From Candidatus Methylomirabilis lanthanidiphila (GTDB taxonomy: Bacteria; Methylomirabilota; Methylomirabilia; Methylomirabilales; Methylomirabilaceae): 64,000 nt of DNA. Numbering within the stretch: position 1 is the first letter of the stretch; every line of letters begins with the position of its first letter. The stretch lies in the NCBI GenBank assembly GCA_902196205.1, contig CABIKM010000026.1, positions 1-64,000 on the forward strand, in the 5' to 3' direction. The notes under the pieces were generated by a model, which ran no database searches, was not told the origin of the DNA, and saw nothing but the letters and a program-made list of their open reading frames with translations. This document shows positions 14,217 to 34,196 of the stretch, in pieces. Both the position numbers and the translations under genes were made by a program.

Positions 14217-14365
14217 AGAGCTCTGCGAAATGTCACACCTATCCCTTTCAAGGTATGTTATGGTATCGTATTACGGCTGGATCGCACAAGTCCGCTTTTC
14301 TGGAAGTTGGGGTCGAATGCCACCGTTACGGTATCCGGGCGCAGGTACGCAGGAGGATATGGTTC

Positions 14366-17598: not shown

Positions 17599-19425
17599 AT
17601 GATAACAGGACCGACGCCGACTGAGAATACCTTACCGCTTCGGATTACCGGTTTTTCTACGCTGGCCGAGGCGCTGGATTATGCAGCCGGGGGAGAGACT
17701 GGATGTAATTTTTACGGAGACCGGGGTGAGCTATACGCAGTCCTGCCGTATGCTGAGCTTCGAGAGCAGGCGCGATCGCTGGCGCGACGTCTCATGAGCC
17801 TTCAACTCGAGCGAGGCGCTCGAGTGGCGATCGTTGCGGATACCGGCCCCGATTTTCAGCGCTTCTTTTTTGCCTGTCAGTACGCCGGTCTCGTGCCTGT
17901 TCCGCTGTCGGCATCACTGTTGATCAGCGGTCGCAAGCGATACGTCAGCCAACTTCGGGCGCTTTTGGCGAACTGCCTGCCGTCCGTCGCCATGGCGCCA
18001 TCCGAATTCTTTCCATTCTTGAGCGAGGCTGCCGACGGTCTCGAGTTGGTCCACATCGGCACACCGGACGCCTTTGATTGCCTGCCCGAAGCCCTGGAGG
18101 AGTTGGAGCCTCTGCGCCCTACCGAGATGGCCTATCTTCAATACACCTCGGGAAGTACCCGGTTTCCTCGCGGGGTGATGATTACCCAGACCGCGGTACT
18201 CGCCAATCTGGAGGGGATTGTTCAACAGGGTCTCCAGATTCGCCCCGGCGATCGAGCGGTATCGTGGCTGCCTTTTTACCACGACATGGGGCTTGTGGGT
18301 TTCGTGCTGGCGCCGATGGTATGCCAGGTCTCTGTCGATTATTTGAAAACGCAATCGTTTGCTATGCGACCCCGGTTGTGGCTGTCGCTCATGACGCAGA
18401 CGAAGGCGACGATCTCTTTCAGCCCGTCATTCGGATATGAGATGTGCGTGAGGCGCCTCAGGCAGGATGAGGCCGGCAGGTTCGACCTCAGTGCGTGGCG
18501 GGCCGCCGGGGTGGGCGCAGAAACCATTCGGCCCGGCGTCTTGCAGGAGTTTGCTAATGTGCTGGCGCCGAGCGGGTTCAAGGCGAGCGCGTTTGTAGCC
18601 TGCTATGGAATGGCGGAGGCATCCCTTGCCGTAAGTTTTGCGCCGATAGCTACTGGGGTGACCGTCGATCAGGTAGATCAGACGCTGTTATCGAAGTTTG
18701 GAGTGGCATCTTCCCTGAACGAGTGTGCAGCAGGATCAGAGTCCGGCAAGACGAACATCAGCCGATTTGTCAACTGCGGTATTCCCCTCTCGGGCATTGA
18801 AGTCGAGGTGCGAGACGAAAAGGGCCATGCGCTACCGGATCGTCACGCCGGGGTAATCTTCGTGCGGGGCGCCAATATGACGTCCGGTTATTTTGGTGAT
18901 CCCGAGAAAACTCGAAAGGTGTTGTCTCCTGACGGATGGCTCGATACGGGAGATCTGGGATACCTCGTAGAAGGCAGCCTTATCATCATCGGCCGCAAGA
19001 AAGATGTGATTATCGTACACGGTCGAAATATCTGGCCTCAAGATCTGGAGCACCTCGCCGAGGAGTTGCCGGAGGTCAGGCCTGGCGACGCGTGCGCGTT
19101 CTCGGTGGAGGGGCCTGACCGGACTGAGATGGCCGTCATGGTTGTCCACTGCCGGGAGCTGGATACCGCCAAACAGGCCGATTTCATCCGCCGTTTGCAA
19201 GGGTTAATCCGCGAGTATTTCGCGCTTGACTGTTTTGTCGAACTCGTTCCCCCCCGCACCCTGCCGCGCACGTCCTCCGGGAAACTCTCCCGTTCAAAGA
19301 CCCGGGAAGAATTTTTGGCTCGGAACGACATGGCCCGACTCTTTCACAGCCGAAACGGATCCGGTCACAACCGTTTTCCGCAGCCCGACCAGCAAGCGGA
19401 CTCATGCGCGGCGTCATCGCGCTGA
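17599..19425 (+). CDS. Fatty acyl-AMP ligase / acyl-ACP synthetase
   Basis: A 608-residue adenylate-forming enzyme of the FAAL class. Motif A3 is YLQYTSGSTRFPRGVMI, A5 is ACYGMAEASLAVSF, A7 is GWLDTGDLGYL, A8 is GRKKDVIIVHGRNIWPQDLE, and the catalytic lysine is in PRTSSGKLSRSKTRE. SWLPFYHDMGLVG is the FAAL form of A4. FAALs activate a fatty acid as its AMP ester and pass it to an acyl carrier protein; here the partner is the ACP at 20464. In Caulobacter an equivalent enzyme charges the ACP used for ceramide. The ATG at 17599 is preferred over an upstream GTG because AGGGGGTG lies at the right distance. The last 30 residues overlap the next gene. Confidence 0.88.
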   Translation: MITGPTPTENTLPLRITGFSTLAEALDYAAGGETGCNFYGDRGELYAVLPYAELREQARSLARRLMSLQLERGARVAIVADTGPDFQRFFFACQYAGLVPVPLSASLLISGRKRYVSQLRALLANCLPSVAMAPSEFFPFLSEAADGLELVHIGTPDAFDCLPEALEELEPLRPTEMAYLQYTSGSTRFPRGVMITQTAVLANLEGIVQQGLQIRPGDRAVSWLPFYHDMGLVGFVLAPMVCQVSVDYLKTQSFAMRPRLWLSLMTQTKATISFSPSFGYEMCVRRLRQDEAGRFDLSAWRAAGVGAETIRPGVLQEFANVLAPSGFKASAFVACYGMAEASLAVSFAPIATGVTVDQVDQTLLSKFGVASSLNECAAGSESGKTNISRFVNCGIPLSGIEVEVRDEKGHALPDRHAGVIFVRGANMTSGYFGDPEKTRKVLSPDGWLDTGDLGYLVEGSLIIIGRKKDVIIVHGRNIWPQDLEHLAEELPEVRPGDACAFSVEGPDRTEMAVMVVHCRELDTAKQADFIRRLQGLIREYFALDCFVELVPPRTLPRTSSGKLSRSKTREEFLARNDMARLFHSRNGSGHNRFPQPDQQADSCAASSR

Positions 19426-20330
19426 CGGGGGCGACCGGATTCATTGGAAGTGCCCTAGCTCGAAGGCTGATACAGGAAGAATGGTGGGTACGCGCGCTTT
19501 ATCGCTCACCATCCCCGCCATTACATCTCGCGGGCCTCTCACCGGAATGGGTGCGGGGGACGCTCGAAGATCGCGACTGTCTGGAAGCCTTGGTCGGCGA
19601 TGCGGATGTGGTCATCCATTGCGCAGGAGCCCTGCGCGGCATCACCGCCGCTGATTTTTACCAGGCCAATGTCGAGGCAGTCTCGCGCTTGGCCTCTATC
19701 GCCGCCAGCCGCAACCCCGCGCCCCGGTTTCTGCTCATATCGTCTCTCGCAGCTCGCGAACCTGAGTTGTCGCCCTACGCTGCCAGCAAGCGGATGGGGG
19801 AGGTCGCTCTATCAAAAGTCTCCGACCAGCTTTCATGGACCGCGCTTCGCCCTCCGGCGGTCTATGGTCCAGGAGACCGCGCGTTACTTCCCTTGTTGCG
19901 CCTGATGCTGCACGGGATCGCGCCCATACCCGGTTGCAAAGATGCCAGGTTCTCCTTACTCTACGTGGAGGATTTGGCAGAGGCCGCGGTGAAATGGCTC
20001 ACCGGCGAGGTCCGAGAGAAACGCGCGTTCGAGTTGGATGATGGACACCCGCAGGGATACACGTGGCATGAGGTCGTCGAGACCTTCGAACGGCTCAGGG
20101 GAAGACGGATGGTTTATTGTCAGATTCCGGAGTCGATCTTGAATCTGGCGGCCGGGCTTAACAAGACGGCTGCTTCCGTGATAGGATACTCTCCGATGTT
20201 TACTCCAGGAAAGGTGCGGGAGCTCAGGCACCCTGACTGGGTCTGCGATAACGGCCCGTTCCGCCGGGTGGTGGACTGGACGCCGAAGGTGCGTCTGGAA
20301 GAGGGTCTGCGGCTGACACTTGGCCTGTAG
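19404..20330 (+). CDS. cerR: NAD(P)-dependent epimerase/dehydratase, probable ceramide reductase
   Basis: A 308-residue extended short-chain dehydrogenase. The nucleotide-binding motif is TGATGFIGSALARRL (8-22), the HCAGA segment is in VVIHCAGALRG, SSLAARE carries the catalytic serine, and YAASKRMGE is the YxxxK pair. Substrate-site features are LRPPAVYGPGDRALLPL. In Caulobacter the homologous gene next to spt reduces the 3-keto group of the acylated sphingoid base (CerR). It overlaps the ligase by 22 bp and precedes the ACP by 133 bp, so coexpression is likely. The specific reaction is inferred from context. Confidence 0.78.
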   Translation: MRGVIALTGATGFIGSALARRLIQEEWWVRALYRSPSPPLHLAGLSPEWVRGTLEDRDCLEALVGDADVVIHCAGALRGITAADFYQANVEAVSRLASIAASRNPAPRFLLISSLAAREPELSPYAASKRMGEVALSKVSDQLSWTALRPPAVYGPGDRALLPLLRLMLHGIAPIPGCKDARFSLLYVEDLAEAAVKWLTGEVREKRAFELDDGHPQGYTWHEVVETFERLRGRRMVYCQIPESILNLAAGLNKTAASVIGYSPMFTPGKVRELRHPDWVCDNGPFRRVVDWTPKVRLEEGLRLTLGL

Positions 20331-20463: not shown

Positions 20464-20712
20464 ATGGCTCACTACGAAACGATACTGCCACAGCTCTATG
20501 AGATCTTGAAACCGTTCGCGCAGGACGGCCAGACCCTTTCCGACGAAACGGAACTGGTGGCCGACCTCGATCTTGATTCAATGAAGGTCCTGGAGATCCT
20601 GCTCGAGGTGGAGGAGCGGTTCGATATCTCTATTCCGTTAAATGTCATACCGGATGTACGGACCATCAGGGATTTTGCTCGCCAGATCGAGCAGCTTACG
20701 GAGCAGAAGTGA
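20464..20712 (+). CDS. Acyl carrier protein dedicated to the ceramide pathway
   Basis: An 82-residue ACP. The phosphopantetheine attachment serine is in LDLDSMKVLEI (S39), in the form DSM rather than the DSL of the housekeeping AcpP. The predicted helices match the four-helix ACP fold. It is flanked by the reductase and the serine palmitoyltransferase and overlaps the latter by 4 bp (GTGA), which means translational coupling. I infer that it carries the acyl group made by the FAAL to SPT or to the ceramide synthase. Confidence 0.87.
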   Translation: MAHYETILPQLYEILKPFAQDGQTLSDETELVADLDLDSMKVLEILLEVEERFDISIPLNVIPDVRTIRDFARQIEQLTEQK

Positions 20713-21899
20713 CAGCGCTTTTGGAAAAATTCCGACAACTCGCCGACGCCCGTGAGGCGTTGACACAATTAAGTCAGGACCCCTTTCGGGTGACGATTGA
20801 GCGGATTCTGTCGTCGACGGAGGCTATTGTAAACGGCCGTCCCATGATTCTGGCCGGCACGAATAATTACCTCGGTCTGACGTTTGATCCCCAGTGTATA
20901 GAGGCGGCGGTCCGGGCGGTGCAGGAGCAGGGAACAGGTACGACCGGATCCAGAATGGCGAACGGCAGCTTCAGCGGGCATCTTGCGTTGGAGCAAGAGC
21001 TGGCGGAATTTTTCGGGCGCCGGTGGTGCGACGTGTTCTCAACCGGCTATCTGGCCAACTTGGGGGTTATTGCGGCGCTCACCGGCCCAGGCGACGTGAT
21101 CCTGATCGATGCCGATTGTCATGCGAGTATTTATGACGGATGCCGGATGAGCGGGGCGGACGTTATTCGATTCCGGCATAACGATACGGCCGATCTCCAT
21201 AAGCGCTTGAGGCGTCTTGGGAAACGGTGCGCCAACACACTCATTATTGTTGAAGGTCTGTACAGCATGCTCGGCGATCGTGCGGCACTGGCGGAGGTCG
21301 CAGCCGCAAAACGCGAGTACGGCGCTTATCTGCTGGTCGATGAGGCCCATTCGCTTGGGGTGCTGGGGGAGCACGGTCGCGGACTGTCGGAGGAGGCCGG
21401 CGTTGAACAGGATGTCGATTTCATCGTCGGAACGTTCAGCAAAAGCCTGGGCGCCACCGGCGGATTCTGCGTCTCGGATCATCCCGAGGTAGACTTGGCA
21501 CGATATATCAGCCGTCCGTACATCTTCACCGCGTCGCCTTGCCCATCGGTCGTCGCCTCTACAAGAGTCGCCTTGCACAAACTTCAGACTGAGCCGGAAC
21601 TGCGCGTGCGGCTTTGGGACAACGCGCGCCGGTTGTACGACGAGTTGAAAGGGTTAGGATTCAGGCTGGGCCCGGAACCCAGTCCGATTATTGCAGCCCG
21701 GTTCGGCCAGAAGGAAGAGACGATCGCCTTCTGGAACGGGCTCCTTGATCAAGGCGTCTACGTCAATATGATATTGCCGCCGGCAGCGCCGGACGGCAGC
21801 AGCCTGCTCCGGTGCAGCGTGAGCGCGGCGCACACGCCGGATCAGATCGACCGCATCTGCCAAGCCTTTGCATCAGTCAAGTTTGCCCTGTCGTCATAG
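20709..21899 (+). CDS. spt: Serine palmitoyltransferase (alpha-oxoamine synthase family)
   Basis: A 396-residue PLP enzyme. The family core is clear: NNYLGLTFDPQ (about 52-62), GTGTTGSRMANGS, DVFSTGYLANLG, DADCHASIYDG (H that stacks on PLP), LLVDEAHSLGVLGEHGRG, and the PLP lysine in TFSKSLGATGGF. Condensation of serine with an acyl thioester gives 3-ketosphinganine, the first step of sphingolipid synthesis. Related enzymes (BioF, Kbl, HemA) share these motifs; I choose SPT because of the neighbouring ACP, FAAL, reductase and ceramide synthase, and because no biotin genes are near. The start is a GTG at 20709 within the ACP stop. Confidence 0.85.
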   Translation: MTALLEKFRQLADAREALTQLSQDPFRVTIERILSSTEAIVNGRPMILAGTNNYLGLTFDPQCIEAAVRAVQEQGTGTTGSRMANGSFSGHLALEQELAEFFGRRWCDVFSTGYLANLGVIAALTGPGDVILIDADCHASIYDGCRMSGADVIRFRHNDTADLHKRLRRLGKRCANTLIIVEGLYSMLGDRAALAEVAAAKREYGAYLLVDEAHSLGVLGEHGRGLSEEAGVEQDVDFIVGTFSKSLGATGGFCVSDHPEVDLARYISRPYIFTASPCPSVVASTRVALHKLQTEPELRVRLWDNARRLYDELKGLGFRLGPEPSPIIAARFGQKEETIAFWNGLLDQGVYVNMILPPAAPDGSSLLRCSVSAAHTPDQIDRICQAFASVKFALSS

Positions 21900-22074: not shown

Positions 22075-23004
22075 ATGCGGCCGGTATTTATTGGCGGGTG
22101 TGAACGGAGCGGTACCACTCTACTGGGATCTATGCTGGGTGGTCACAACGATTGTTTGTGCGTACCGGAGATGCAGTTTAAATTTAATATTTTGCGGCTT
22201 ACGGCAAGTGGCGATCAGAACTCAGTTGATACGGTAAATATCTTGCGCAGACTAAGCGACCGATCCCGATTTAGAATATGGGAGCTGGATGTGGCTTCAG
22301 TGACTCACAAAAGGCTGTCCTGCCGGGAATTGATAGAATGGATTGTTACCGCCTACAGTCAAAAGGTCGGTAAACCCGCGCCAGCGGTTTGGGTTGACCA
22401 TACCCCTGCAAATATCAGATATGCGTGGACGTTGTTACACCTGTTTCCAGACGCCAAAATGATTCACATTATCAGAGACGGCCGTGCCGTTGCCGCCTCG
22501 ATTCTCCCGCTGGACTGGGGACCCAACGGGATAGACTATGCGGCCCGTTTCTGGGCAGAAAGGTTGGCGTATGGCCTTGCTGCAGAGTCACTATGGCCGG
22601 ATAAGGTTATACGGATTCGATACGAAGACTTGGTGCAGTACCCAGAGAACACTTCGACGGAACTCTGCAAGGCGTTGGCAATCAACTATGAATCTGCAAT
22701 GAGTCAAGCAACAGGCTTTCAAGTGCCAAAGTATTCCGCGAGCCAACATACCCTGATCGGCAACGCACCGGACCGGGCGCGAGTCGATGCCTGGATGAGG
22801 GAGCTCACGTCTAGACAAATCGAGATCTTCGAAAGCATCGCGTCGGATCTATTGGAGTCGCTGGGCTACGTCCCCAAGTTTGGTCTGCATGCCAGACGAA
22901 TGTCACGGATGGAAAGGATTGGTTCAGACCTCCGCGAGCTGTACAAAAAGGAACTCAACAGACACCGTAAGCACAGAAGGAAGAAGACTACCATACCTTC
23001 GTGA
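22075..23004 (+). CDS. PAPS-dependent sulfotransferase family protein
   Basis: A 309-residue sulfotransferase. The 5'-phosphosulfate loop is GGCERSGTTLLGSML (about 7-21) and the 3'-phosphate site is IIRDGRAVAAS (about 140-150); HTPANIRYAWTLLHLFPDAKMI lies between. It would transfer a sulfuryl group from PAPS to a lipid or glycan. Base composition is more AT-rich than the flanking genes, which suggests later acquisition. The C-terminus is very basic (KELNRHRKHRRKK). Position in the ceramide locus suggests sulfation of a sphingolipid or of a linked glycan, but that is inference. Confidence 0.8.
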   Translation: MRPVFIGGCERSGTTLLGSMLGGHNDCLCVPEMQFKFNILRLTASGDQNSVDTVNILRRLSDRSRFRIWELDVASVTHKRLSCRELIEWIVTAYSQKVGKPAPAVWVDHTPANIRYAWTLLHLFPDAKMIHIIRDGRAVAASILPLDWGPNGIDYAARFWAERLAYGLAAESLWPDKVIRIRYEDLVQYPENTSTELCKALAINYESAMSQATGFQVPKYSASQHTLIGNAPDRARVDAWMRELTSRQIEIFESIASDLLESLGYVPKFGLHARRMSRMERIGSDLRELYKKELNRHRKHRRKKTTIPS

Positions 23005-23183
23005 CGCTTACGGGTTTGCCGGTGAAGATGATTCCAACGCTCTTCCTGTCACCAGACGAGGCAACCTACGGACGTCGTTATATCCGTCCGTCGTGTGCGT
23101 GTGTGATACCGTAACCCTACGCCACTACAGATTCGCGGACTCAGCAATGCGTTCTTCACGGCGCTGTCCTGGTTGACGCGATA

Positions 23184-24464
23184 ATGGTACAGGTGGGACG
23201 TCCGAAGTGCGTACCAGGTGCCATGCGCACTGCCGCAGGTCTCATGATGGTTGATGCTGTTATGGTGGATTGTACCGCAAAGCACCCCGGTGAGGTCGGA
23301 GGATCAGTCGCGCCACCGGCGGCGAAGGGCGCGATTGCGCTCTTTTTGTCCGATCTATCGGGTGGTGGGTCCAAGCAACGCGCCCTTACTCTGGCCGACG
23401 CATTCGCCGCCAACGGATACAGGGTCGACATAGTAGTGGTGCGCCCGGAAGGCCAGTTACGCAGTAAATTGCCGAATCGCGTACGGCTCGTCCCGTTGCA
23501 ATTCTGGCTGGCCCGTCTCTCTGTAGTGCGCAACACTGAACGCCGTCAGCTATGGGCGAATATACCGGCCCTGGTACGCTATCTGCGATGCGAGCGTCCA
23601 GATGTCCTGCTGGCAACAGGGAATTACGTCAACTTTGCGGCAGTATGGGCGTGTCGCTTGGCGCGTACGGGAACCCGCCTTGTGTTGCGCGCTTCCAACC
23701 ACCTCTCGCAGTCTGCGTGGAACCCGAACAGGAAAACCCGACCGTTGCGACCCGTATTCGCACGACTGCTCTATCCTTGGGCCGATGCTATTATTGCCGT
23801 ATCGGAGGATGTGGCGCGTGACCTTGCTCGTGTAACCGGGATTCCGCGTGAGCGGATTGCTGTCATCCCTAATCCGGTTGTAACGGGTGAGCTCGAGGAG
23901 AAGGCACGGTCTCCTTTGGACCATCCCTGGTTTCGGCCAGACCAGCCGCCCGTAGTACTCGGCGTCGGTCGACTCGTCTCGCAAAAAGACTTCCCCACTC
24001 TGCTTCGCGCCTTCGCCCGGTTACGCGTGAGGCGCCCCATTCGGTTGATGATCCTTGGCGAAGGAAAGGTTCGTACGCAACTCGCTTCGCTTGCCCAACA
24101 ACTGGGAATCTCGGAAAACACCTCGTTTCCGGGCTATATGGACAATCCCTATCCCTATATGGTGCGCAGCGCCGTGTGTGTCCTTTCCTCCGCCTGGGAG
24201 GGATTGCCGGGCGTGCTCATCGAGGCGATGGCCTGCGGCTGCCCCGTCGTGAGCACCGATTGCCCGGGCGGTGCCGCAGAGATTCTGCAGGGCGGCGTGT
24301 ACGGGCCCCTCGTGCCGGTCGGCGACGACACCGCACTGGCGATGGCGATCGAGTCGGTATTGGACAGTCCTCCGGAGCGCGAGCACTTACAAAAGCGGGC
24401 ACGTTACTATAGCGCCGATCGCGCGGTGGAGCAGTATCTGGAAATACTGCTTCCTGAGGATTGA
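23184..24464 (+). CDS. Family 4 glycosyltransferase, first of a tandem pair
   Basis: A GT-B-fold retaining glycosyltransferase (up to 426 residues). The acceptor domain begins IALFLSDLSGGGSKQRALTLA (about 49-69); the donor domain contains VLGVGRLVSQKDFPTLLRAF, LMILGEGKVRTQL, FPGYMDNPYPYM and the GT4 glutamate motif SSAWEGLPGVLIEAMACGCPVV (about 332-353). It is similar to the next gene throughout. The start is uncertain: ATG at 23184, or an internal ATG at 23244. It probably adds a sugar to a lipid- or polymer-linked acceptor made by this locus. Confidence 0.85.
   Translation: MVQVGRPKCVPGAMRTAAGLMMVDAVMVDCTAKHPGEVGGSVAPPAAKGAIALFLSDLSGGGSKQRALTLADAFAANGYRVDIVVVRPEGQLRSKLPNRVRLVPLQFWLARLSVVRNTERRQLWANIPALVRYLRCERPDVLLATGNYVNFAAVWACRLARTGTRLVLRASNHLSQSAWNPNRKTRPLRPVFARLLYPWADAIIAVSEDVARDLARVTGIPRERIAVIPNPVVTGELEEKARSPLDHPWFRPDQPPVVLGVGRLVSQKDFPTLLRAFARLRVRRPIRLMILGEGKVRTQLASLAQQLGISENTSFPGYMDNPYPYMVRSAVCVLSSAWEGLPGVLIEAMACGCPVVSTDCPGGAAEILQGGVYGPLVPVGDDTALAMAIESVLDSPPEREHLQKRARYYSADRAVEQYLEILLPED
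24228..24304 (+). repeat. 77-bp exact direct repeat shared by the two GT4 genes
   Basis: The 77 bp from 24228 to 24304 recur without a mismatch at 25543-25619, 1315 bp downstream, in the same position of the paralogous gene. Flanking codons differ at many positions, so the identity of this block is above the level of the rest of the genes. It encodes MACGCPVVSTDCPGGAAEIL and following residues in the donor-site region. Confidence 0.85.
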
Positions 24465-24561
24465 CCTGGAGGGACCACTCACCGATATTAAAAAGGGGAT
24501 GATTATGCGATGCCTCCAGTTGCCTTGAAGTACATCATGTGCAAGCATCGCGCGCTTTAGG

Positions 24562-25905
24562 GTGGCTGGCGCTGCCATGGTGAACGATGTTGGAGGGCGA
24601 CCTGATGGGGTCATAAGGCGAGGCGCTCAACCGGCGGAGAAAGCTGTCATCGCGCTCGTTGTGGCCAGTCTGCGCGGCGGTGGAGCTCCACGGCAGGCGG
24701 TGATCCTCGCGAATGCATTTGCCGCACGCGGACAGATCGTCCACCTTGTGGTCATTCAACCTGAGGGCGCACTGAGGAGTGCAGTCGCGCCCTGTGTACG
24801 GCTTGTATCGCTCGAATCCCGGATGCTCCGTCTTCCATTGGTCCGCAGTAACCGCCGCCTTCAGGTCGTGGCAAGCATACCGCCGTTGGTACGTTATCTG
24901 CGCCACGAGCGTCCCGATGTTCTGGTCGCTGCGGCGAGCCATGTCCACCGTGCCGCGATATGGGCGCGCTGTCTGGCACGCACAGAAACCCGTCTTGTGT
25001 TGCGCGCAAGCAACCATCTGTCGCGCTCGGCGTGGAATACCAAGAGGTGGCCGCGACCGTTGCTGCCGGTGTTTGCCCGGCTATTTTATCCATGGGCCGA
25101 CGGGTTCATCGCGAATTCGGAGGGCATTGCGGACGATCTTTCGCGTGTCGCCGGGATTCCGCGTGAGCGGATTACGGTCATTCCGAATCCGGTCGTCACA
25201 CCTGAGCTCAAAGAGCAGGCGTGCGTACCGCTTGACCATCCCTGGTACCGACCAGGTCAGCCGCCCGTGATCCTCGGCGTCGGGCGCCTCACCACCGCGA
25301 AAGACTTTCCTACCCTGCTTCATGCCTTCGCGCGGCTGCGCGCAACCCGCCGGGTTCGGCTGATCATCCTCGGCGAGGGTAAAGGCCGTTCACGGCTGAC
25401 CGTGCTTGCCGAACAGCTTGGCATCGCCGCCGATCTTGAACTGCCGGGCTGGATGGATAATCCTTATCGGTATATGGCGCGCAGTGCCGTGTTTGTCCTT
25501 TCCTCGGCCTGGGAGGGGTTGCCGAATGCGCTCATCGAGGCCATGGCCTGCGGCTGCCCCGTCGTGAGCACCGATTGCCCGGGCGGTGCCGCAGAGATTC
25601 TGCAGGGCGGCGTGTACGGACCCCTCGTTCCGGTCGGTGACGACGCGGCACTTGCCGAGGCTATTGCATCGGTGCTCGACAATCCGCCTGAGCGCGAGCG
25701 TCCGCAGACGCGAGCGCGCTACTATAGCGCTGATCTTGCGACGGAGCGGTATCTCCAGATATTACTCGGTGTTGCCGGTATATCCCAGCCTCACGAACCT
25801 GAATCAGAGAGCGCGCGGCCGGGCGCTGATGAGGCGTACGCCCACAGTCCCACACTGTTGCCTCAGCGGCCCGGAGAGCGCGCCGGTGTCCTCCGTTCGG
25901 AGTAA
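24562..25905 (+). CDS. Family 4 glycosyltransferase, second of a tandem pair
   Basis: A 447-residue GT4 enzyme, paralogous to the preceding gene. Shared blocks include LRGGGAPRQAVILANAFAARG at the N-terminus, VLRASNHLSRSAWN, GVGRLTTAKDFPTLLHAFARL and SSAWEGLPNALIEAMACGCP. The last 40 residues are a unique tail (PESESARPGADEAYAHSPT). The GTG at 24562 opens the frame; the ATG at 24577 is an alternative. A conserved 77-bp identical tract links the pair. Duplication probably gave two sequential sugar-adding steps. Confidence 0.85.
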   Translation: MAGAAMVNDVGGRPDGVIRRGAQPAEKAVIALVVASLRGGGAPRQAVILANAFAARGQIVHLVVIQPEGALRSAVAPCVRLVSLESRMLRLPLVRSNRRLQVVASIPPLVRYLRHERPDVLVAAASHVHRAAIWARCLARTETRLVLRASNHLSRSAWNTKRWPRPLLPVFARLFYPWADGFIANSEGIADDLSRVAGIPRERITVIPNPVVTPELKEQACVPLDHPWYRPGQPPVILGVGRLTTAKDFPTLLHAFARLRATRRVRLIILGEGKGRSRLTVLAEQLGIAADLELPGWMDNPYRYMARSAVFVLSSAWEGLPNALIEAMACGCPVVSTDCPGGAAEILQGGVYGPLVPVGDDAALAEAIASVLDNPPERERPQTRARYYSADLATERYLQILLGVAGISQPHEPESESARPGADEAYAHSPTLLPQRPGERAGVLRSE

Positions 25906-25911
25906 GTAACT

Positions 25912-27081
25912 ATGCGTATTGGCTTTCTTTTCAACCACTACTCGCCGCACCAGATGCCTCACGCGGCGCCCTATGCCTACGAACTGTCGCGCCGGTACCC
26001 GGAATTCGAGGTGGTCATCGTTACCTCGTCCGAGGCCGAGGTCGCCATGGCCAGGTCGATTGGCGCGCTCTATCCGGGGCATCGTTGCAGGCTCGCCCGT
26101 CTCTACTCGGCCTGGTGGTATCGGCTGATCGATCCTCTCGTGTCATTACTTGTGTTCGGTCGCAAGAATCGAATTCTAAAGGATAATCTTGACTTCTTTC
26201 GCGGCCTTGATGCGCTGGTATCGCCGGAACGGCACTGCCGGCGGCTGCATACACAATACGGATTGCAACAACTCAAACTGATCCACACGCGGCACGGAGC
26301 CGGCGACCGCGAAGGAACGAGGGAAGAGGAGGTCGCGCTGTTCGACTTCGTCCTGTTGCCCGGGCAGAAAAACGTCGACCGTTTGGCCGCAGCTGGATAT
26401 CTGAAACCCGGGCGCTACGTCGTAACCGGCTACCCCAAGTTCGAGGTGATTCGCGGTTGGGATCGCGGAAGGCGGCGCCTGTTCGACAACCCCAATCCGG
26501 TGGTGGTCTATAATCCACACTTCTACCAGCCTCTCTCCTCATGGTCCAGCATGGGACATGCGGTCCTCGACTTCTTTGTCGCCCATCCGCAGTATAACCT
26601 GATCTTCGCACCGCATGCGGTGTTGTTTGAACGCCGCTGGCGTCACCACGCCTCACTGCCTGCACGGTACAAAAAGGCCTCCAATATCCTTATCGATACC
26701 GATAGCCCGGCCTTATCGGATATGACGTACACGCTGGCCGCCGATATCTACCTGGGAGACGTGAGCAGCCAGATCTACGAGTTTCTTCTCGAGCCGAGGC
26801 CCTGCATCTTTCTGAACGGGCATAAGGTTGCGTGGGAAAATAATCCCCACTATGCCCATTGGCGGTTTGGCCAGGTCATCGACGACGTTGCGCGCGAACT
26901 GGGTCCGGCGCTGGCTGCCGCTTCAGACACCCACCCGCGATTCCTGCCCGAGCAACTGGCGGGTTTCGCCTATACCTTCTACGAGGAGTCCGGAAGTACC
27001 GCGGCGCAACGCGGCGCCGATGCCATCGCCACATTTGTGGTCGGCGATTCGCAAGCCGCTGTAAGTCTCAGTGCCGCCTAA
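25912..27081 (+). CDS. CDP-glycerol glycerophosphotransferase-like (TagB/TagF-type) protein
   Basis: A 389-residue GT-B-type protein. Recognisable blocks are IHTRHGAGDREGTREEE (about 123-139), a donor-domain GYPKFEVI, VVYNPHFYQPLSSW (about 199-212), LIFAPHAVLF, and YLGDVSSQIYEFLLEPRPC (about 283-301). The HGxGDR and DVSS..YEFL motifs match the poly-glycerophosphate transferase family. It could transfer glycerol-phosphate or a related unit onto a surface polymer or lipid. It follows the GT4 gene by 6 bp, so it is cotranscribed. Confidence 0.7.
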   Translation: MRIGFLFNHYSPHQMPHAAPYAYELSRRYPEFEVVIVTSSEAEVAMARSIGALYPGHRCRLARLYSAWWYRLIDPLVSLLVFGRKNRILKDNLDFFRGLDALVSPERHCRRLHTQYGLQQLKLIHTRHGAGDREGTREEEVALFDFVLLPGQKNVDRLAAAGYLKPGRYVVTGYPKFEVIRGWDRGRRRLFDNPNPVVVYNPHFYQPLSSWSSMGHAVLDFFVAHPQYNLIFAPHAVLFERRWRHHASLPARYKKASNILIDTDSPALSDMTYTLAADIYLGDVSSQIYEFLLEPRPCIFLNGHKVAWENNPHYAHWRFGQVIDDVARELGPALAAASDTHPRFLPEQLAGFAYTFYEESGSTAAQRGADAIATFVVGDSQAAVSLSAA

Positions 27082-27211: not shown

Positions 27212-27372
27212 TCAACATTTGGCGTCTACTCCTTTACGTGAGTGCGGCAGGAATATCAAGGCGCTATCGCAATGACGACACTGCGAGGGCAGAATCGTAG
27301 GGATGCCACAACGACATTGGCCTTCAAGACCCTCACGTTGGTCGCTCTAGTACCGGACAGGTGCGCGTTGCC

Positions 27373-29133
27373 ATGCGGTTTTTGATTACGATTATTCGGA
27401 AATATCCCAGACGGAGCGCGCTCACGCTGATCTGTCTCCTGCTCGCGAGTATTGCGGAGGGGATCGGGCTCCTCATGCTGCTGCCCGTGCTCAGCGTGGC
27501 GACCGACGACCAGCCCCAGGGAACCGGTTCTCACCTATTCGGGGCGCAGCAGATTCTGACGCAGGCACTATCGGTCGTGGGGCTGAAACCGACCGTCGGC
27601 ACGCTATTGACCCTCATCATCCTCTGCATAACGGTGAAGGCAGCATTTTCCCTGTTGGCCAAGACCCAGGTAGGATACACGGTGACACACGTGGCCACCG
27701 ATCTCCGACTCACCCTGCTGCGAACCCTGCTGGCTGCCCGGTGGGAGTATTACGTGCGTCAACCTATCGGGGGCTTAGCTAACGCGGTAGGAACCGAAGC
27801 GATGCGGGCGTCTATGGCCTACTTTGAGGGCGCCAAGGCCATCACCTTACTCATTGAAGCCATTGTGTACGCAGGGGTGGCCTTCGCCGTAGCCAAAATG
27901 GCGACCTTTGCCTTTCTGGTCCCCGGAATACTGATCCTCTACGGACTTAGCTACCTTGTCCGCAAAGCCCATCGGGCCGGCACCCGCCAGACCAAGTTAT
28001 TAAAATCCCTTGTGGCCGGCCTCACCGATAGCCTCCAATCCATTAAACCGCTCAAAGCGATGGCGCGGGAAGAGCTGATCGGCCCGTCGCTCCAATCCAG
28101 CACCAAGCGGTTGAATCGGGCGTTTCAGCGCGAGGTGTTGAGCACCGAGCTTCTCAGCTCTTCTCAAGACCTGACGTTGGCGCTCGTCGTGGTTGTCGGG
28201 TTATACGTAGCCCTCAGCCAGTGGAAGATGCCGCTCAATGTCGTGATGGTGATGGTGATTCTGCTCGCGCGCATGCTGACCTTCCTCGCCAAGATGCAAC
28301 GGCAATACCAGAAGGCACGGACCCTGGAGAGCGCCTTCTGGTCGTTACAAGCCGCTATCGACGGCGCGAGCGGGGATCGCGAAACAGAGTCGGGAGGCCC
28401 TTCTCCCAACCTCGAAAAGGCTCTTCGGCTGGATAAGGTCAGCTTTGGCTATGAAAAGTATTCCGTGCTGCGAGATGCGTCGCTGACCATCCCTGCAGGG
28501 TCGTTCACCGTCATCATAGGACCATCAGGGGCCGGGAAAACGACAGTTGCCGATCTGCTCACGGGCCTGTTGCGTCCGCAGCAAGGCCGCGTCTGGATCG
28601 ACGGTCTGCCGTTAGATGGTGTCGATCTGAGGCAGTGGCGGCGAATGATCGGGTACGTCCCGCAAGAACCCTTCCTTCTCCACGACACCATACTGCGGAA
28701 CGTGACACTCGGCGATCCTGAGCTGAAGGAGGCCGACGTCGAGGCCGCGCTGCGCGCGGCCGGCGCCTGGGACTTTGTGGCGGTACAACCCTTCGGGATC
28801 CACAGTTCGGTCGGAGAACGCGGAACCGCGCTTTCAGGAGGTCAGCGACAACGTATTGCGATCGCTCGCGCATTAGTGCATCGGCCCAAGCTGCTGATTC
28901 TGGACGAGGTGACCAGCGCGCTTGATCAGGAGAATACGGCGACGATTTGCCGAACGCTGCGCGGTCTTCGGGGTCGCCTCACTATTCTCGCCATTTCACA
29001 CGACGCTGCTGTCGTAGAGAGTGGGGATAGGGTGTATCGGATATACAACGGCGAGGCGTCGTTGGTGACCAACGGCCACGATCCAGATTTTGTCCACAGT
29101 GAACCGGCAGAGCAATCCAAATCCAAAGGCTAG
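27373..29133 (+). CDS. MsbA-like ABC exporter (TM and ATPase in one chain)
   Basis: A 586-residue half-exporter that acts as a homodimer in the inner membrane. The TM domain has about six helices (about 15-300, first helix LTLICLLLASIAEGIGLLM). The ATPase domain has Walker A GPSGAGKTT, Q-loop VPQEPFLLHDTILRN, signature LSGGQRQRIAIARA, Walker B LLILDEVTSALD and AISHDAAV. The start could be the GTG at 27361 or, as chosen, the ATG at 27373. Position between sphingolipid and polymer genes suggests flipping of a lipid or lipid-linked glycan made here. Confidence 0.88.
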   Translation: MRFLITIIRKYPRRSALTLICLLLASIAEGIGLLMLLPVLSVATDDQPQGTGSHLFGAQQILTQALSVVGLKPTVGTLLTLIILCITVKAAFSLLAKTQVGYTVTHVATDLRLTLLRTLLAARWEYYVRQPIGGLANAVGTEAMRASMAYFEGAKAITLLIEAIVYAGVAFAVAKMATFAFLVPGILILYGLSYLVRKAHRAGTRQTKLLKSLVAGLTDSLQSIKPLKAMAREELIGPSLQSSTKRLNRAFQREVLSTELLSSSQDLTLALVVVVGLYVALSQWKMPLNVVMVMVILLARMLTFLAKMQRQYQKARTLESAFWSLQAAIDGASGDRETESGGPSPNLEKALRLDKVSFGYEKYSVLRDASLTIPAGSFTVIIGPSGAGKTTVADLLTGLLRPQQGRVWIDGLPLDGVDLRQWRRMIGYVPQEPFLLHDTILRNVTLGDPELKEADVEAALRAAGAWDFVAVQPFGIHSSVGERGTALSGGQRQRIAIARALVHRPKLLILDEVTSALDQENTATICRTLRGLRGRLTILAISHDAAVVESGDRVYRIYNGEASLVTNGHDPDFVHSEPAEQSKSKG

Positions 29134-29311: not shown

Positions 29312-30517
29312 ATGACCGTTTATGCCCATATACTCGGAGAGGCCTCAGTCACGTTGTGGGGGCTTTCATCTCGTGAGCGCTACCGGCGGGTATTGAAACC
29401 GGTAGGGGTCACCGGGATTGTCGATGATTTCTCTTCCCTGCAACCGGACGATTCGGTGCTGATGGTTCGTGGGGATTACCTCTTGGATGGACGCATCCTC
29501 CAGAGCATGACCAAGTCACCACATATCATGCTTGAGGCGCCGGCCGGATCATCACGCGCGGTCATCGCCGCTCATGTGTCGGCTGACATGGCCATGAAGG
29601 CAAGGGCGGTCCTGGCTCGGGCAGAGAACGCGGTGAGACTTCCGGGTATCCGCGTCGAGAAACTTGAAGACCAGCTATCGTCGTTTGATCCGCGGTTACG
29701 CAAATCGGAGCCACCCTTTGCGGAACCGATCAGGCCCGATACGAAACGCGCGTTGGAGAAGCGCTTGTTCGCCAGTTCCTACAAAAGCGTAACCGATCTG
29801 GTCACCAAATGGCTATGGCCTTCGCCTGCCCGATGGGCTGTGCGTCTGTGCGTCGCTGCGGGGTTGAGGCCCAACCATGTTACGACGGTCAGCGTACTAT
29901 TGGTCGTAGCGGCCGCCATCCTCTTTGCTCAAGGTCTCTATGGGTGGGGACTGGCCGCCGGATGGGTCATGACCTTTCTTGATACCGTGGACGGAAAGCT
30001 CGCCCGAGTGACCGTGACCAGCACCAGGTTTGGCCACCTGCTTGACCACGTCCTGGACCTGGTGCATCCGCCCTTCTGGTACCTGCTGTGGGGGCTTGGG
30101 CTGGAGTCGTTCGCTCCAGGCATTCCGTGGCTTACCCTGCGACTGGCAATCTGGGCGATCTTCGTCGGATACATCGTTGGGCGCCTTGTTGAGGGGATCT
30201 TCAGAAAGTGGCTTGGTGGCTTTGTTATCTTCTGCTGGCGTCCTGTTGACTCGTACTTTCGGTTGGTGACAGCCCGGCGTAACCCGAATATGATTCTTCT
30301 CACCATAAGCCTGGTCTTAGGCAGACCGGATCTGGGATTAGTGGCTGTCACCGGATGGACAGTGCTCTCGTCTCTTCTGCTGCTGGCGCGCCTCGGTATC
30401 GCTGTGTATGCGCGCATGCACGGACCGTTGCGATCCTGGCTGGCCGATGATACAGGTCGCGTCGGCAACGATTCGCTTGCCGTAAGGCTGTTTATCCATC
30501 AATTTCCCACTCCGTAG
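29312..30517 (+). CDS. CDP-alcohol phosphatidyltransferase with an N-terminal degenerate nucleotidyltransferase-like domain
   Basis: A 401-residue membrane enzyme. The C-terminal part has the complete CDP-OH-P motif, DTVDGKLAR, then eight residues, G, three, D, three, D (about 224-249), within several TM helices; it would join a CDP-activated substrate to an alcohol with release of CMP. The N-terminal 150 residues (AHILGEASVTLWGLSSRERYRRVL and onwards) resemble the remains of an NTP-transferase fold but lack its glycine-rich loop. Bifunctional inositol-phosphate cytidylyltransferase/phosphotransferases have a similar order. It heads an operon with a lipid kinase, desaturase and nucleotidyltransferase. 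Confidence 0.85.
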   Translation: MTVYAHILGEASVTLWGLSSRERYRRVLKPVGVTGIVDDFSSLQPDDSVLMVRGDYLLDGRILQSMTKSPHIMLEAPAGSSRAVIAAHVSADMAMKARAVLARAENAVRLPGIRVEKLEDQLSSFDPRLRKSEPPFAEPIRPDTKRALEKRLFASSYKSVTDLVTKWLWPSPARWAVRLCVAAGLRPNHVTTVSVLLVVAAAILFAQGLYGWGLAAGWVMTFLDTVDGKLARVTVTSTRFGHLLDHVLDLVHPPFWYLLWGLGLESFAPGIPWLTLRLAIWAIFVGYIVGRLVEGIFRKWLGGFVIFCWRPVDSYFRLVTARRNPNMILLTISLVLGRPDLGLVAVTGWTVLSSLLLLARLGIAVYARMHGPLRSWLADDTGRVGNDSLAVRLFIHQFPTP

Positions 30518-30547
30518 GTTGCGAGTGGCGGGAGGCGCTTTGACGCC

Positions 30548-31594
30548 ATGTTGCGGGATATGATGTCTGAGCCCGTGAAGGGCGAAGTCGGTTTCGCGCC
30601 CGGCGCTTGCCTTCCGTGGGATAACCGCAGCGCACGTCGGGTCGGCGTACTGATCAACCCGGAGAGCGGGGCGAATCGAGAGGGTCTCCAGGCCCTACGG
30701 CACGTCCTGGATCAGTATAAGCCGGCGATCCACCGATATGTTGTCGGACAGGCAAGTGTAGCCGGCGCCCTTGCGGCAATGGCGGCTCAGCACGTGGATG
30801 TCTTGGCCGTTTGCGGCGGGGATGGAACCGTCCAGGCGGTATTGACCGCCCTGTTGCACAATGGACCCTTTACCGTGTTGCCTTCCCTGGCGCTTATTGC
30901 CGGAGGGACCTCGAATATGACCGCCGCCGATGTCGGCGTGAGAGGCAAGCCGACGCGAGCATTGCGGCGCCTGTTTGCGTGGTCGGAGGGCAGAGGCCCG
31001 ACCGGTCGGGTTGTACGGCGAGCGATCATACGGGTGGATGGCGGAGCGGGCAGCACGCCGCAGTTTGGGATGTTTTTCAGCGCTGCCGGGATCGTTGAAG
31101 TCACTCGCGCCCGATGGGAGACCCGTCGGCAAGCCAGATCAAAGCCGATGCGCGGCGCCCCGGGGACGGCCATTACGGTGGGTCGGTATCTGCTGGGTCT
31201 CGCGCTTGGGCGTCAAGTGGTTGCGCCAACCCCGATTACGATTCGCTTAGACGGTCGGTCACACAGTGTGAAGAACTACCTCGCACTGTTTATCACTACC
31301 TTGGAACGGCTGAACCCTGGGATACGACCATACTGGGGCGAGGGACATGGCCCACTCAGGTATACGGCGGTGGCCTATCAACCGCGGAACCTGCTTCTGG
31401 CTGCACCGTCGCTGATCCGTGGAAGAGCCAGCCGATACCTGACGCCAGAGTCCGGGTATACGAGCGGGAACATCCACGAGGCCGTATTGCAACTCCAGAC
31501 GGAATGTGCGCTTGATGGAGAGATAGTGAGGCGCGTGACGGCGCGCGCACTCGCAGTGACGTACGGAGGGGAGGTTAACTTTGTACGAGTATGA
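30548..31594 (+). CDS. LCB5/diacylglycerol-kinase-family lipid kinase (possible ceramide kinase)
   Basis: A 348-residue protein of the DAGK-catalytic family. The Walker-like VAVCGGDGTVQAVL (about 82-95) carries the GGDGT motif, preceded by VGVLINPESGANREG (about 33-47) and followed by LALIAGGTSNMTAADVG. Members phosphorylate diacylglycerol, sphingosine or ceramide. In Caulobacter a kinase of this family, next to ceramide genes, phosphorylates ceramide. I infer the same here because of the neighbours; sequence alone does not distinguish the substrate. It overlaps the desaturase by 14 bp. Confidence 0.82.
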   Translation: MLRDMMSEPVKGEVGFAPGACLPWDNRSARRVGVLINPESGANREGLQALRHVLDQYKPAIHRYVVGQASVAGALAAMAAQHVDVLAVCGGDGTVQAVLTALLHNGPFTVLPSLALIAGGTSNMTAADVGVRGKPTRALRRLFAWSEGRGPTGRVVRRAIIRVDGGAGSTPQFGMFFSAAGIVEVTRARWETRRQARSKPMRGAPGTAITVGRYLLGLALGRQVVAPTPITIRLDGRSHSVKNYLALFITTLERLNPGIRPYWGEGHGPLRYTAVAYQPRNLLLAAPSLIRGRASRYLTPESGYTSGNIHEAVLQLQTECALDGEIVRRVTARALAVTYGGEVNFVRV

Positions 31595-32732
31595 AAAGAA
31601 GGCGCCATCGATTGCCGTGGAGGGATCGGAATCGCCGGCTGCCGCTCAGCAAGAGAGTCCGGAGTTTTCCCGCCGGGAGATCAAGAAGCTTGTACACGAT
31701 CTGTTCATTCCAAAGCCGATGCTTTATTGGGCCGACTTTCTGATTACGGTGTCCATCGGGTACGGTTTTGCCGCAATCTACCTGATGGCACCCGCCTTCT
31801 CGTTGCTTCAGATCGCCGCAGGTCTGGTGTCCGGCCTGGCGTTGTTCAGGGTCGGCATCTTCATTCATGAGCTGGTCCATAGAGAGGAGCCCTCCATGAG
31901 AGGATTCCATGTCGTCTGGAATCTGCTGTTTGGAGTGCCGTTTCTCCTCCATTCGCTCCTGTACCGCAGTCACCTTGACCATCATCATCCTCGTAAATTC
32001 GGCACACCCGCCGAAGGCGAATATCTCCCCCTTGGCTCGTCGCCAATCAAGGAAACGCTGCTGTATCTTGCGCAGATTCCGGCCGTACCGCTCCTGGCCG
32101 CGTTCCGTTTCCTGGTCCTGGTGCCGCTGTCGTTTCTCTATCCCCCCTCTCGCCGCTGGGTCTTGGAGCGCTGGTCCTCATATACCATCAACCCATACTA
32201 TCGGCGCGTCGTCCCCTCAACGGAACCCCTAGGTCTGTGGGCCATACTGGACCTGCTCTGCCTACTGTGGCTGATAGTTGTGATCGGGCTGATTGTCACG
32301 GGAGTCATTGCATGGACGACAGTCGGCCTGATTTATGGTCTGACGATCTGTACGATCGCGCTGAACTGGGTCCGTACCCTCGCGGCTCACCGATTCTTGA
32401 ATACGGGGGGGAATATGACCTACGCGGAGCAGATTGAGGACTCGTTGACGATCGAGGGGCGTTCCTTATTGACGCTGCTCCTGTTTCCTATCGGATTGCG
32501 GTACCATGCCCTGCATCATCTGTTTCCGCTGATGCCCTATCACTCCATGGGTGAAGCTCATCGTCGGCTGATGAAAGCCCTCCCGGACGACTCGCCGTAC
32601 AAAAAGGGGATCTTTTCCGGTTTGTGCGCCGCGCTCCGCGAGCTGCTTCGAAGCGCAAGAACAGCAGGAAGGGTCGGGCACAATCCGGTGGAGACGTGGC
32701 GTCATCCGGAAACGGCGACCTATGCACGATAA
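31581..32732 (+). CDS. Membrane fatty acid desaturase/hydroxylase
   Basis: A 383-residue diiron membrane enzyme. Three histidine boxes are visible: HELVH (about 95-99), HLDHHH (about 131-136) and HALHH (about 310-314), with hydrophobic helices between them. The family inserts a double bond or hydroxyl into acyl chains, sphingoid bases or ceramides. The start is a TTG at 31581, chosen because GGAGGGGAGG (31565-31574) ends 6 bp upstream and no in-frame ATG is near. Overlaps the kinase by 14 bp and the next gene by 11 bp. Which chain is modified is unknown. Confidence 0.85.
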   Translation: MYEYEKKAPSIAVEGSESPAAAQQESPEFSRREIKKLVHDLFIPKPMLYWADFLITVSIGYGFAAIYLMAPAFSLLQIAAGLVSGLALFRVGIFIHELVHREEPSMRGFHVVWNLLFGVPFLLHSLLYRSHLDHHHPRKFGTPAEGEYLPLGSSPIKETLLYLAQIPAVPLLAAFRFLVLVPLSFLYPPSRRWVLERWSSYTINPYYRRVVPSTEPLGLWAILDLLCLLWLIVVIGLIVTGVIAWTTVGLIYGLTICTIALNWVRTLAAHRFLNTGGNMTYAEQIEDSLTIEGRSLLTLLLFPIGLRYHALHHLFPLMPYHSMGEAHRRLMKALPDDSPYKKGIFSGLCAALRELLRSARTAGRVGHNPVETWRHPETATYAR

Positions 32733-33684
32733 GCCGGAGGCGTGGACGCAACTGGCGTCCGCCATCGAACGACACAGTGCGGGACCCGTCACGCCGGGGA
32801 TCCGTGCTGTGGCCGACGCGCTGCTGCAGCGTTATGGCGATGCCGCGACCGCCGTGCTCGCGTACGGATCCTGCTTTCGTAATCGGACGGACGAGGGGCT
32901 CATCGATCTGTGCGTCCTGGTTGACAGCTACCGGTCTCTCCCCGGACCTGTGCGACAGCAGTGGCTGTATCGTCTTCTGTCTCCCACGGTGTTTCATCTG
33001 GAGACCCCGCACAACGGCCGCACACTTCGAACCAAGTACATCGTCATCTCGCGTGAAGACTTCGAGCGAGGTGTCTCACCACGCTGTTTCCATTCGTATC
33101 TGTGGGCCAGGTTTGCCCAACCCACAGGCGTGCTGTATGCTCGAGACGAGTCCAGCGCCAGGCGGGTGTACGCGTCGTTGGCACAGGCCGTCGTGACATT
33201 CGTCGATCGCGTCGTTCCGATGCTGCCCTCGACGTTCGATGCTCGCGACCTGTGGCAACAGGGATTGCGCCTCACCTATGGGACCGAACTGAGGCCCGAG
33301 CGGACAGACGCCGTCACACGACTGGTCGAACACTCCCTTGATTACTATGAGCAGATGACCCGCATCGGAATGGAGTGTGGGCCGTTTGATGTGCGACCGG
33401 CTGAGGAAGGTCGGAAGACCGGATATCGTGCGGCCATACCCTTCTCCGTCCGTTTTATGAGCGGCCTTGCATGGCGACTTCGGAAAGTGCATGGCAAAAT
33501 GCTGAATATCTTGCGCCTGCTGAAAGGGTTGTTGACATTCAGAGGCGGCAGGGACTACGTCCTGTGGAAGATCGAACGACACTCCGGCATAAAAGTAGAA
33601 GTCCCGCCGTACTACGAACGGTATCCATGGTTCGCGACAGCACTGATCCTCGGAAGGCTCTACCGACAAGGCGCGTTCCGGTAG
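32722..33684 (+). CDS. Nucleotidyltransferase-fold protein (possible lipid-phosphate cytidylyltransferase)
   Basis: A 320-residue protein with a probable pol-beta-type nucleotidyltransferase core: AVLAYGSCFRNRT followed by DLCVLVD (about 48-73), which supplies GS and two aspartates. This is the arrangement in Tam41-type CDP-diacylglycerol synthases, which also carry a YGS..D.. motif. The rest is helical with a basic segment (RLRKVHGKMLNILRLLKG, about 252-269). It sits after a lipid kinase and a desaturase and ends the unit. I infer that it may make a CDP-activated lipid (CDP-diacylglycerol or CDP-ceramide); no close match is asserted. Confidence 0.6.
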   Translation: MHDKPEAWTQLASAIERHSAGPVTPGIRAVADALLQRYGDAATAVLAYGSCFRNRTDEGLIDLCVLVDSYRSLPGPVRQQWLYRLLSPTVFHLETPHNGRTLRTKYIVISREDFERGVSPRCFHSYLWARFAQPTGVLYARDESSARRVYASLAQAVVTFVDRVVPMLPSTFDARDLWQQGLRLTYGTELRPERTDAVTRLVEHSLDYYEQMTRIGMECGPFDVRPAEEGRKTGYRAAIPFSVRFMSGLAWRLRKVHGKMLNILRLLKGLLTFRGGRDYVLWKIERHSGIKVEVPPYYERYPWFATALILGRLYRQGAFR

Positions 33685-33701
33685 AGAAAGATCGGTCGGC
33701 C

Positions 33702-34196
33702 ATGAATCGCATGCCGGTTATCTTGTCCGGCCTCGTGCTGGCTTGTCTGCTTGTGCTGTCGTGGGATGCACATGCCCAGATTCATGCGACCGAGGGGGCA
33801 TGTAACGGTGCTGCCACCGCCATCGACGTTCGAGTGCAAGGGGTCCGAAGCGACCGCGGGAATATTATGTTTGTCCTGTATGGCGACAACCCCGACGATT
33901 TTCTCGTGAAGGGTAAGAAGATCTTCAAGCAACACGTTGCTGCGAAGCGCGGGACCGTGGCGTTCTGTGTGATCGTCCCAAAGGCGGGCAGTTATGCGGC
34001 CAGCGTCTACCACGACGAAAACGGGAATAAGAAACTTGACAGGAGCTGGATAGGGATACCGGCCGAAGGCGCCGGCTTCTCGAACAATCCCCCGCTACTC
34101 GTGGGCCCACCCAGCCATACGCAAGCGGCATTTCAGGTCTCGAACGGCCCCAAGCGTGTAGAGATCCAACTCAATTATTCGATCCTGGGCCAGTGA
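33702..34196 (+). CDS. DUF2141 family secreted protein
   Basis: A 164-residue exported protein: signal peptide LSGLVLACLLVLSWDAHA (about 8-25), then a beta-rich DUF2141 domain with YHDENGNKKLDRSWIGIP (about 106-123), a calcium-loop-like segment, and GFSNNP. The ATG at 33702 matches the signal peptide, so the earlier in-frame start at 33471 inside the previous gene is not used. Family function is unknown; members occur next to carotenoid, sterol or sphingolipid-type loci. It lies 17 bp after the nucleotidyltransferase gene. Confidence 0.8.
   Translation: MNRMPVILSGLVLACLLVLSWDAHAQIHATEGACNGAATAIDVRVQGVRSDRGNIMFVLYGDNPDDFLVKGKKIFKQHVAAKRGTVAFCVIVPKAGSYAASVYHDENGNKKLDRSWIGIPAEGAGFSNNPPLLVGPPSHTQAAFQVSNGPKRVEIQLNYSILGQ

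Follow-up and report, generated by a model that had tools for sequence, protein, structure and literature searches.

A Tam41-related nucleotidyltransferase in a Caulobacter-type phosphosphingolipid cluster of Candidatus Methylomirabilis and its possible role in CDP-ceramide synthesis

How do bacteria convert ceramide-1-phosphate into ceramide phosphoglycerate (CPG)? This step is the missing reaction of the pathway that supports Caulobacter life without lipopolysaccharide, and the question is raised by a locus of Candidatus Methylomirabilis (phylum NC10; host genome 3.05 Mb). The stretch analyzed, referred to as the window, comprises positions 1-64,000 of contig CABIKM010000026.1, and the protein in question is a nucleotidyltransferase encoded at 32722-33684. 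The Caulobacter phosphosphingolipid genes are CC_1152-CC_1168 (PMC11324152), and ceramide kinase activity is proven for CpgB (PMC10331486). Of the Caulobacter headgroup genes tested, CPG depends on CC_1160 and CC_1161 alone and forms without CC_1159 (CpgA); CC_1159, CC_1152 and CC_1153 are required for CPG2 but not for CPG (PMC11324152). Cytidine diphosphate (CDP)-glycerate is made by CpgD, whose top structural match is 4JD0 (PMC12275187). The mechanism of CpgC was called unidentified in a preprint as of May 2026 (PMC13228409). Olea-Ozuna et al. (2024) suggested that CC_1161 has a CDP-diacylglycerol-synthase (InterPro) domain and may make a nucleoside diphosphate-activated ceramide; an energetic objection to direct glycerate addition was raised in the same paper (PMC11324152). 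We propose, as the reading that on balance appears probable, that the window holds an NC10 copy of the Caulobacter-type pathway with Tam41-type CDP-ceramide synthesis.

A first-pass annotation had placed four named genes in one operon at 29312-33684, and four co-directional open reading frames with the families and motifs it had named are indeed found there:

29312-30517, + strand: CDP-alcohol phosphotransferase, CpgA/CC_1159-like (Pfam CDP-OH_P_transf, E 1.6e-10; motif at residues 224-249)
30548-31594, + strand: lipid kinase, CpgB-like ceramide kinase (Pfam DAGK_cat, E 1.4e-16; GGDGT at residue 90)
31581-32732, + strand: membrane fatty acid desaturase/hydroxylase (Pfam FA_desaturase, E 1.5e-22; three His boxes)
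32722-33684, + strand: Tam41-like nucleotidyltransferase, positional ortholog of CC_1161/CpgC (YGS(x11)D at residues 48-62; profile comparison; synteny)

The shared direction of the four genes and the gaps of +30, -14 and -11 nt between them make the set operon-like. The gene content of the earlier description stands; its order and extent had to be corrected, as the CDP-alcohol enzyme comes first and the kinase second, and the cluster runs from 12088 to 34196, far beyond the quoted span. The catalytic motif of the CDP-alcohol enzyme is intact (DTVDGKLARx8GHLLDHVLD, of the pattern DxxDGxxARx8GxxxDxxxD), as are the His boxes of the desaturase (HELVH/HLDHH/HALHH), which probably modifies the ceramide chain. 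The kinase, with DAGK_cat and an intact GGDGT motif within a sphingolipid cluster, is of the CpgB type, in agreement with the lipid kinase announced earlier; a PDB search with it gave no match at 0.001. The 32722-33684 protein alone matched no Pfam or NCBIfam family.

Tam41 is the mitochondrial and Firmicutes CDP-diacylglycerol synthase. A Tam41-like motif had been noticed in the nucleotidyltransferase, and this likeness holds at the sequence level. The motif YGSCFRNRTDEGLIDLCVLVD occupies residues 48-68; shuffling the protein 20,000 times produced such a pattern in 27 cases, and all 12 homologues, with identities as low as 30%, retain its Y, G, S, R53, G59 and D62. Tam41_Mmp37 (PF09139) was the sole Pfam family matched by several members (4/12, best E 0.0036, short of the curated cutoff). 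When a profile of the 12 homologues was compared with the PDB, Tam41 of S. pombe (6IG2/6IG4) came first (E 0.01), followed by kanamycin nucleotidyltransferase at the YGS motif. Profile-profile comparison of the family with Tam41 using hhalign gave an E-value of 2.7e-5 and a score of 40.5, with 148-159 columns in order. The controls reached at most 20.7 (300 column shuffles), 19.1 (200 block shuffles), 11.1 (reversed profile) and 18.9 (other window proteins), so that the Tam41 score is twice the best of 500 shuffles and was reached by none of them. The Tam41 sequences, 6IG2 and 7ECD, were the PDB letters printed in alignments to a consensus-like query, which itself was not used further.

Homology is detectable across the nucleotidyltransferase and winged-helix parts, and nine nearly invariant residues (Y48, D62, K105, R130, F131, P134, Y186, R191 and E193) are identical in both Tam41 structures. 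The elements shared with Tam41/TAMM41 (6IG2, 6IG4 and the bacterial 7ECD) are YGS with a single Asp, K, RF..P, Y..[DE].R and E, in the same order over ~160 residues, and a basic C-terminus. The C-terminal 100 residues of the window protein carry a net charge of +13, and the last 75 residues carry +11 to +14 in all members; in Tam41 the C-terminus is a basic amphipathic membrane segment (PMC7018664). The window protein differs from Tam41 by an identity of only ~22-24% in the aligned part, a shorter stretch past the Asp motif, scores below the Pfam cutoff and a genomic setting among sphingolipid genes instead of cardiolipin synthesis. Judged from these profiles, the nucleotidyltransferase is very likely a remote homologue of Tam41.

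As in Tam41, YGS is followed in this family by a single acidic residue rather than by DxD. The lack of a second acidic residue, which canonical nucleotidyltransferases have, would fit a catalytically silent scaffold of that fold, or an enzyme that modifies proteins, on which CPG synthesis depends. We consider this very improbable: Tam41 enzymes retain just one of the three nucleotidyltransferase acidic residues and are active (PMC11646218), and the family keeps the basic and acidic positions of the Tam41 type without variation.

Which Caulobacter gene does the nucleotidyltransferase correspond to? On plasmid p546-2 of R. haemaphysalidis the order is two NTP transferases, GNAT, the LptF/G pair, HIT, DUF2141, metallophosphoesterase, CDP-alcohol enzyme, kinase, nucleotidyltransferase, serine palmitoyltransferase (SPT) and acyl carrier protein. 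This order is colinear gene by gene, and in the same sense, with CC_1152-CC_1163, with the nucleotidyltransferase between kinase and SPT; the family therefore occupies the CC_1161/CpgC slot. The window protein is thus the positional ortholog of CC_1161/CpgC, assigned by gene position and not by the CC_1161 sequence. Like CpgC (ccna_01219), the family lies beside the ceramide kinase and is co-inherited with it, the desaturase standing between the two in the window, and the CDP-diacylglycerol-synthase domain published for CC_1161 is in line with the Tam41 match obtained here. Counterparts of CpgA, CpgB, CpgC and CpgD are all present in the window, matched by family and gene order, not against the Caulobacter sequences. 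The remaining genes of the cluster are as follows:

12088-13260, - strand: LptG, and 13152-14216, - strand: LptF, a permease pair like LptF2/LptG2 of the Caulobacter cluster (domain families)
14255-15085, + strand: MobA/IMPCT-like nucleotidyltransferase, CpgD/CC_1152-like, probable CTP:phosphoglycerate cytidylyltransferase (top PDB match 4JD0)
15114-15914, - strand: NTP_transf_3 protein, CC_1153-like (domain family, synteny)
15911-17101, - strand: GNAT-domain protein, like bacterial ceramide synthase (CC_1154/CerS) (Pfam, synteny)
17575-19425, + strand: fatty acyl-AMP ligase, AasR/CC_1165-like (NF006624, 773 bits, cutoff 600)
19404-20330, + strand: NAD-dependent epimerase/reductase, CerR/CC_1164-like (Pfam, synteny)
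20464-20712, + strand: acyl carrier protein, AcpR/CC_1163-like, 82 residues with DLDS (between CerR and SPT, as on plasmids)
20709-21899, + strand: SPT (NCBI equivalog NF047599, 637 bits, cutoff 500)
27361-29133, + strand: ABC transporter, MsbA/HepA-like, candidate flippase (family matches)
33699-34196, + strand: DUF2141 protein (adjoins the cluster also in Roseomonas and Qipengyuania)

The ceramide context of the first description is borne out, the ceramide set being complete: SPT and the ligase exceed curated cutoffs, GNAT and CerR were recognized by Pfam and synteny, and the acyl carrier protein lies among them. The region 12088-34196 is almost certainly a complete Caulobacter-type phosphosphingolipid cluster, of which the four-gene span is the distal part. 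In common with CC_1152-CC_1168 it has the SPT, acyl carrier protein, CerR, acyl-AMP ligase, CerS-like GNAT, LptF/G and CpgD-, CC_1153-, CpgA-, CpgB- and CpgC-like genes; it differs in its NC10 host and in the desaturase, sulfotransferase, two glycosyltransferase family 4 (GT4) genes and TagF-like gene that it additionally contains. A metallophosphoesterase (CC_1158) was not recognized among the window cluster genes examined. Apart from the desaturase, these extra genes lie at 22075-27081 (sulfotransferase; tandem GT4 genes at 23184 and 24562; weakly TagF-like protein at 25912-27081) and have no counterparts in the cluster of the related genome G006; they could yield additional glyco-, sulfo- or polyphosphoglycerate sphingolipids.

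Co-occurrence was examined in 99 related genomes, the window's own genome (G000) included. The nucleotidyltransferase, the kinase and the CDP-alcohol enzyme at full length each occur in one and the same set of eight (G000, G006, G008, G009, G010, G011, G014 and G056); not counted were G005, with a 46-residue nucleotidyltransferase stub, and G062, whose match to the CDP-alcohol enzyme is partial (30%). The naive chance of an identical 8/99 pattern is 1/C(99,8), ~6e-12, a figure that overstates the evidence, because seven of the eight genomes belong to a single genus and are not independent. Orthologs of SPT without the three genes occur in G003, G004, G005 and G013, two of which (G004 and G005) have a completeness of 99%. 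The G005 genome keeps SPT, but only residues 314-347 of the kinase and residues 1-46 of the nucleotidyltransferase are left, flanking an intact desaturase: the two genes were lost by two separate deletions with the same functional outcome. This pattern places the desaturase most likely in the ceramide part of the pathway and the kinase and nucleotidyltransferase in the headgroup part; the desaturase would thus lie outside the headgroup path, as it persists in genomes that no longer have the kinase, nucleotidyltransferase and CDP-alcohol enzyme. The deletion in G005:C97 has fused nucleotidyltransferase residues 1-46 in frame with the downstream DUF2141 gene. On G014:C29 (metagenome-assembled genome MO2), the copy of the CDP-alcohol enzyme beside the kinase lacks residues ~103-319, the catalytic part, and is still an open frame of 203 residues; loss of the enzyme from this genome was considered and dropped, an intact copy lying on another contig.

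Relatives were also found on plasmids. Among 72,556 plasmid records, 17 carry the nucleotidyltransferase (31-40% identity), 17 the kinase and 16 the CDP-alcohol enzyme. Roseomonas, Pseudomonas JS425/BYT-5 and Diaphorobacter plasmids each bear the trio together, and in every record opened it adjoins sphingolipid genes. A Qipengyuania plasmid has the kinase and nucleotidyltransferase, with no CDP-alcohol enzyme in the stretch viewed. On a Pseudomonas veronii plasmid (51728-64896), an SPT cluster with kinase lacks nucleotidyltransferase and CDP-alcohol enzyme; in their place are an aspartyl hydroxylase and ATP-binding proteins of the YghR/YghS type, so that this is probably a different headgroup pathway. 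The whole phosphosphingolipid cluster is present on pDCB2 of Diaphorobacter sp. JS3051; this IncP plasmid is conjugative and also carries mer genes and a Tn3 transposase. Searches of viral contigs for nucleotidyltransferase relatives returned one 71-residue fragment.

What, then, does the CDP-alcohol enzyme do? The first-pass annotation had assigned it the final headgroup transfer. A direct use of CDP-ceramide by this adjacent enzyme, transferring ceramide-phosphate to a headgroup alcohol, would agree with the usual consumption of CDP-lipids by CDP-alcohol phosphotransferases, with the perfect co-occurrence of the three genes in the eight genomes and in 16 plasmid records, and with their presence in G008 and G014, which have no close CpgD. 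We regard it as rather unlikely, however. Caulobacter makes CPG without CC_1159, and the kinase/CC_1161 pair occurs without CC_1159 on the Qipengyuania plasmid and in Z. mobilis (PMC11324152). The enzyme itself has a CDP-inositol-type family signature; its match to 4MND covers profile positions 46-277 and so extends into the cytidylyltransferase part, and its N-terminal part (to ~residue 135) seems to be a remnant of a fused cytidylyltransferase domain. Both features point to a small CDP-alcohol as donor. Compared with the bifunctional CDP-inositol enzymes IPCT-DIPPS (4MND) and with IMPCT (4JD0), the CpgD-like protein matches the cytidylyltransferase half and the CDP-alcohol enzyme the transferase half; the window differs in having two separate genes, with a degenerate cytidylyltransferase remnant apparently kept on the membrane enzyme. 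From the family signature, the CpgD-like gene at 14255-15085 and the Caulobacter genetics, we assign the CDP-alcohol enzyme to the second phosphoglycerate; it is probably CpgA-like, using CDP-glycerate from the CpgD-like protein, and the assignment of the final transfer to it is probably mistaken. The same genome encodes a second large CDP-alcohol phosphotransferase (G000:C55, 69412-69666 and flanks; 399 residues) with an additional N-terminal region, and pDCB2 carries a second one, 35% identical, a candidate for the missing CDP-ceramide:glycerate transferase.

For the Tam41-type enzyme straight after a ceramide kinase, the role of a CTP:ceramide-1-phosphate cytidylyltransferase is most simply assumed, and we lean towards CDP-ceramide synthesis as the activity of the 32722-33684 protein. 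The kinase would convert ceramide into ceramide-1-phosphate, the phosphate of which would attack CTP on the nucleotidyltransferase to give CDP-ceramide and pyrophosphate. Glycerate would then displace CMP to form CPG, catalyzed by the same nucleotidyltransferase or by another enzyme, and the CpgA-like enzyme would add the second phosphoglycerate from CDP-glycerate supplied by the 14255-15085 protein. The desaturase would modify the ceramide chain, and the lipid would be exported by the LptF/G-type and ABC transporters. A CDP-ceramide step would answer the energetic objection to direct glycerate addition (PMC11324152). Activation of another small or lipid phosphate, e.g. phosphoglycerate, phosphatidate or CPG, appears doubtful to us. 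The sequence does not reveal the substrate, and further nucleotidyl-activation steps exist in the pathway (CpgD, CC_1153); yet CDP-glycerate already comes from CpgD, loss of CC_1161 halts the pathway ahead of CPG, and the nucleotidyltransferase tracks the ceramide kinase. Synthesis of CDP-diacylglycerol is an unlikely role because the genome encodes its own, separate CdsA.

Several points weigh against the proposal. Individual sequences match Tam41 only weakly: the window protein has no Pfam match, family member L009 reached 15.8 bits against the PF09139 gathering cutoff of 24, hmmsearch with the two Tam41 sequences gave E ~3 at best, and the window protein alone gave chance matches only against the PDB. 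A Pfam Tam41 search of the whole own genome found no match even at E 10. The AlphaFold model of the nucleotidyltransferase, built from three sequences (window, L002 and L003), had a pLDDT of 43 and is not a confident structure. The tie to CC_1161 is positional, as noted above, the substrate could be another phospholipid or phosphate, and no dedicated CDP-ceramide:glycerate transferase was identified. Finally, the three genes are retained in G008 and G014, where a diverged (29%) NTP transferase stands in place of CpgD, which suggests that their CDP-alcohol and headgroup may differ; this protein (G014:C102, G008:C108) has a GTGSRL motif.

The idea of CDP-ceramide synthesis, as put forward in the first annotation, fits the context, the kinase and the Tam41 match; it is not new, having been proposed for CC_1161 by Olea-Ozuna et al. 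(2024). In the literature searched, from which most subscription papers were outside coverage, we found neither the term 'CDP-ceramide' nor a relevant link of Methylomirabilis to sphingolipid genes. The phosphosphingolipid pathway is known, with an unsolved step; its occurrence in phylum NC10 is new, and the full cluster now extends to nitrite-dependent methane oxidizers. The relation of the CpgC-slot family to Tam41, its conservation in NC10 and three proteobacterial classes at identities down to 30%, and its loss alongside the kinase make the published suggestion specifically assayable. It is somewhat likely that Alpha-, Beta- and Gammaproteobacteria and NC10 form CDP-ceramide by a Tam41-type enzyme for their sphingolipid headgroups. 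If this is true, CDP-ceramide would be a bacterial lipid-nucleotide intermediate parallel to CDP-diacylglycerol.

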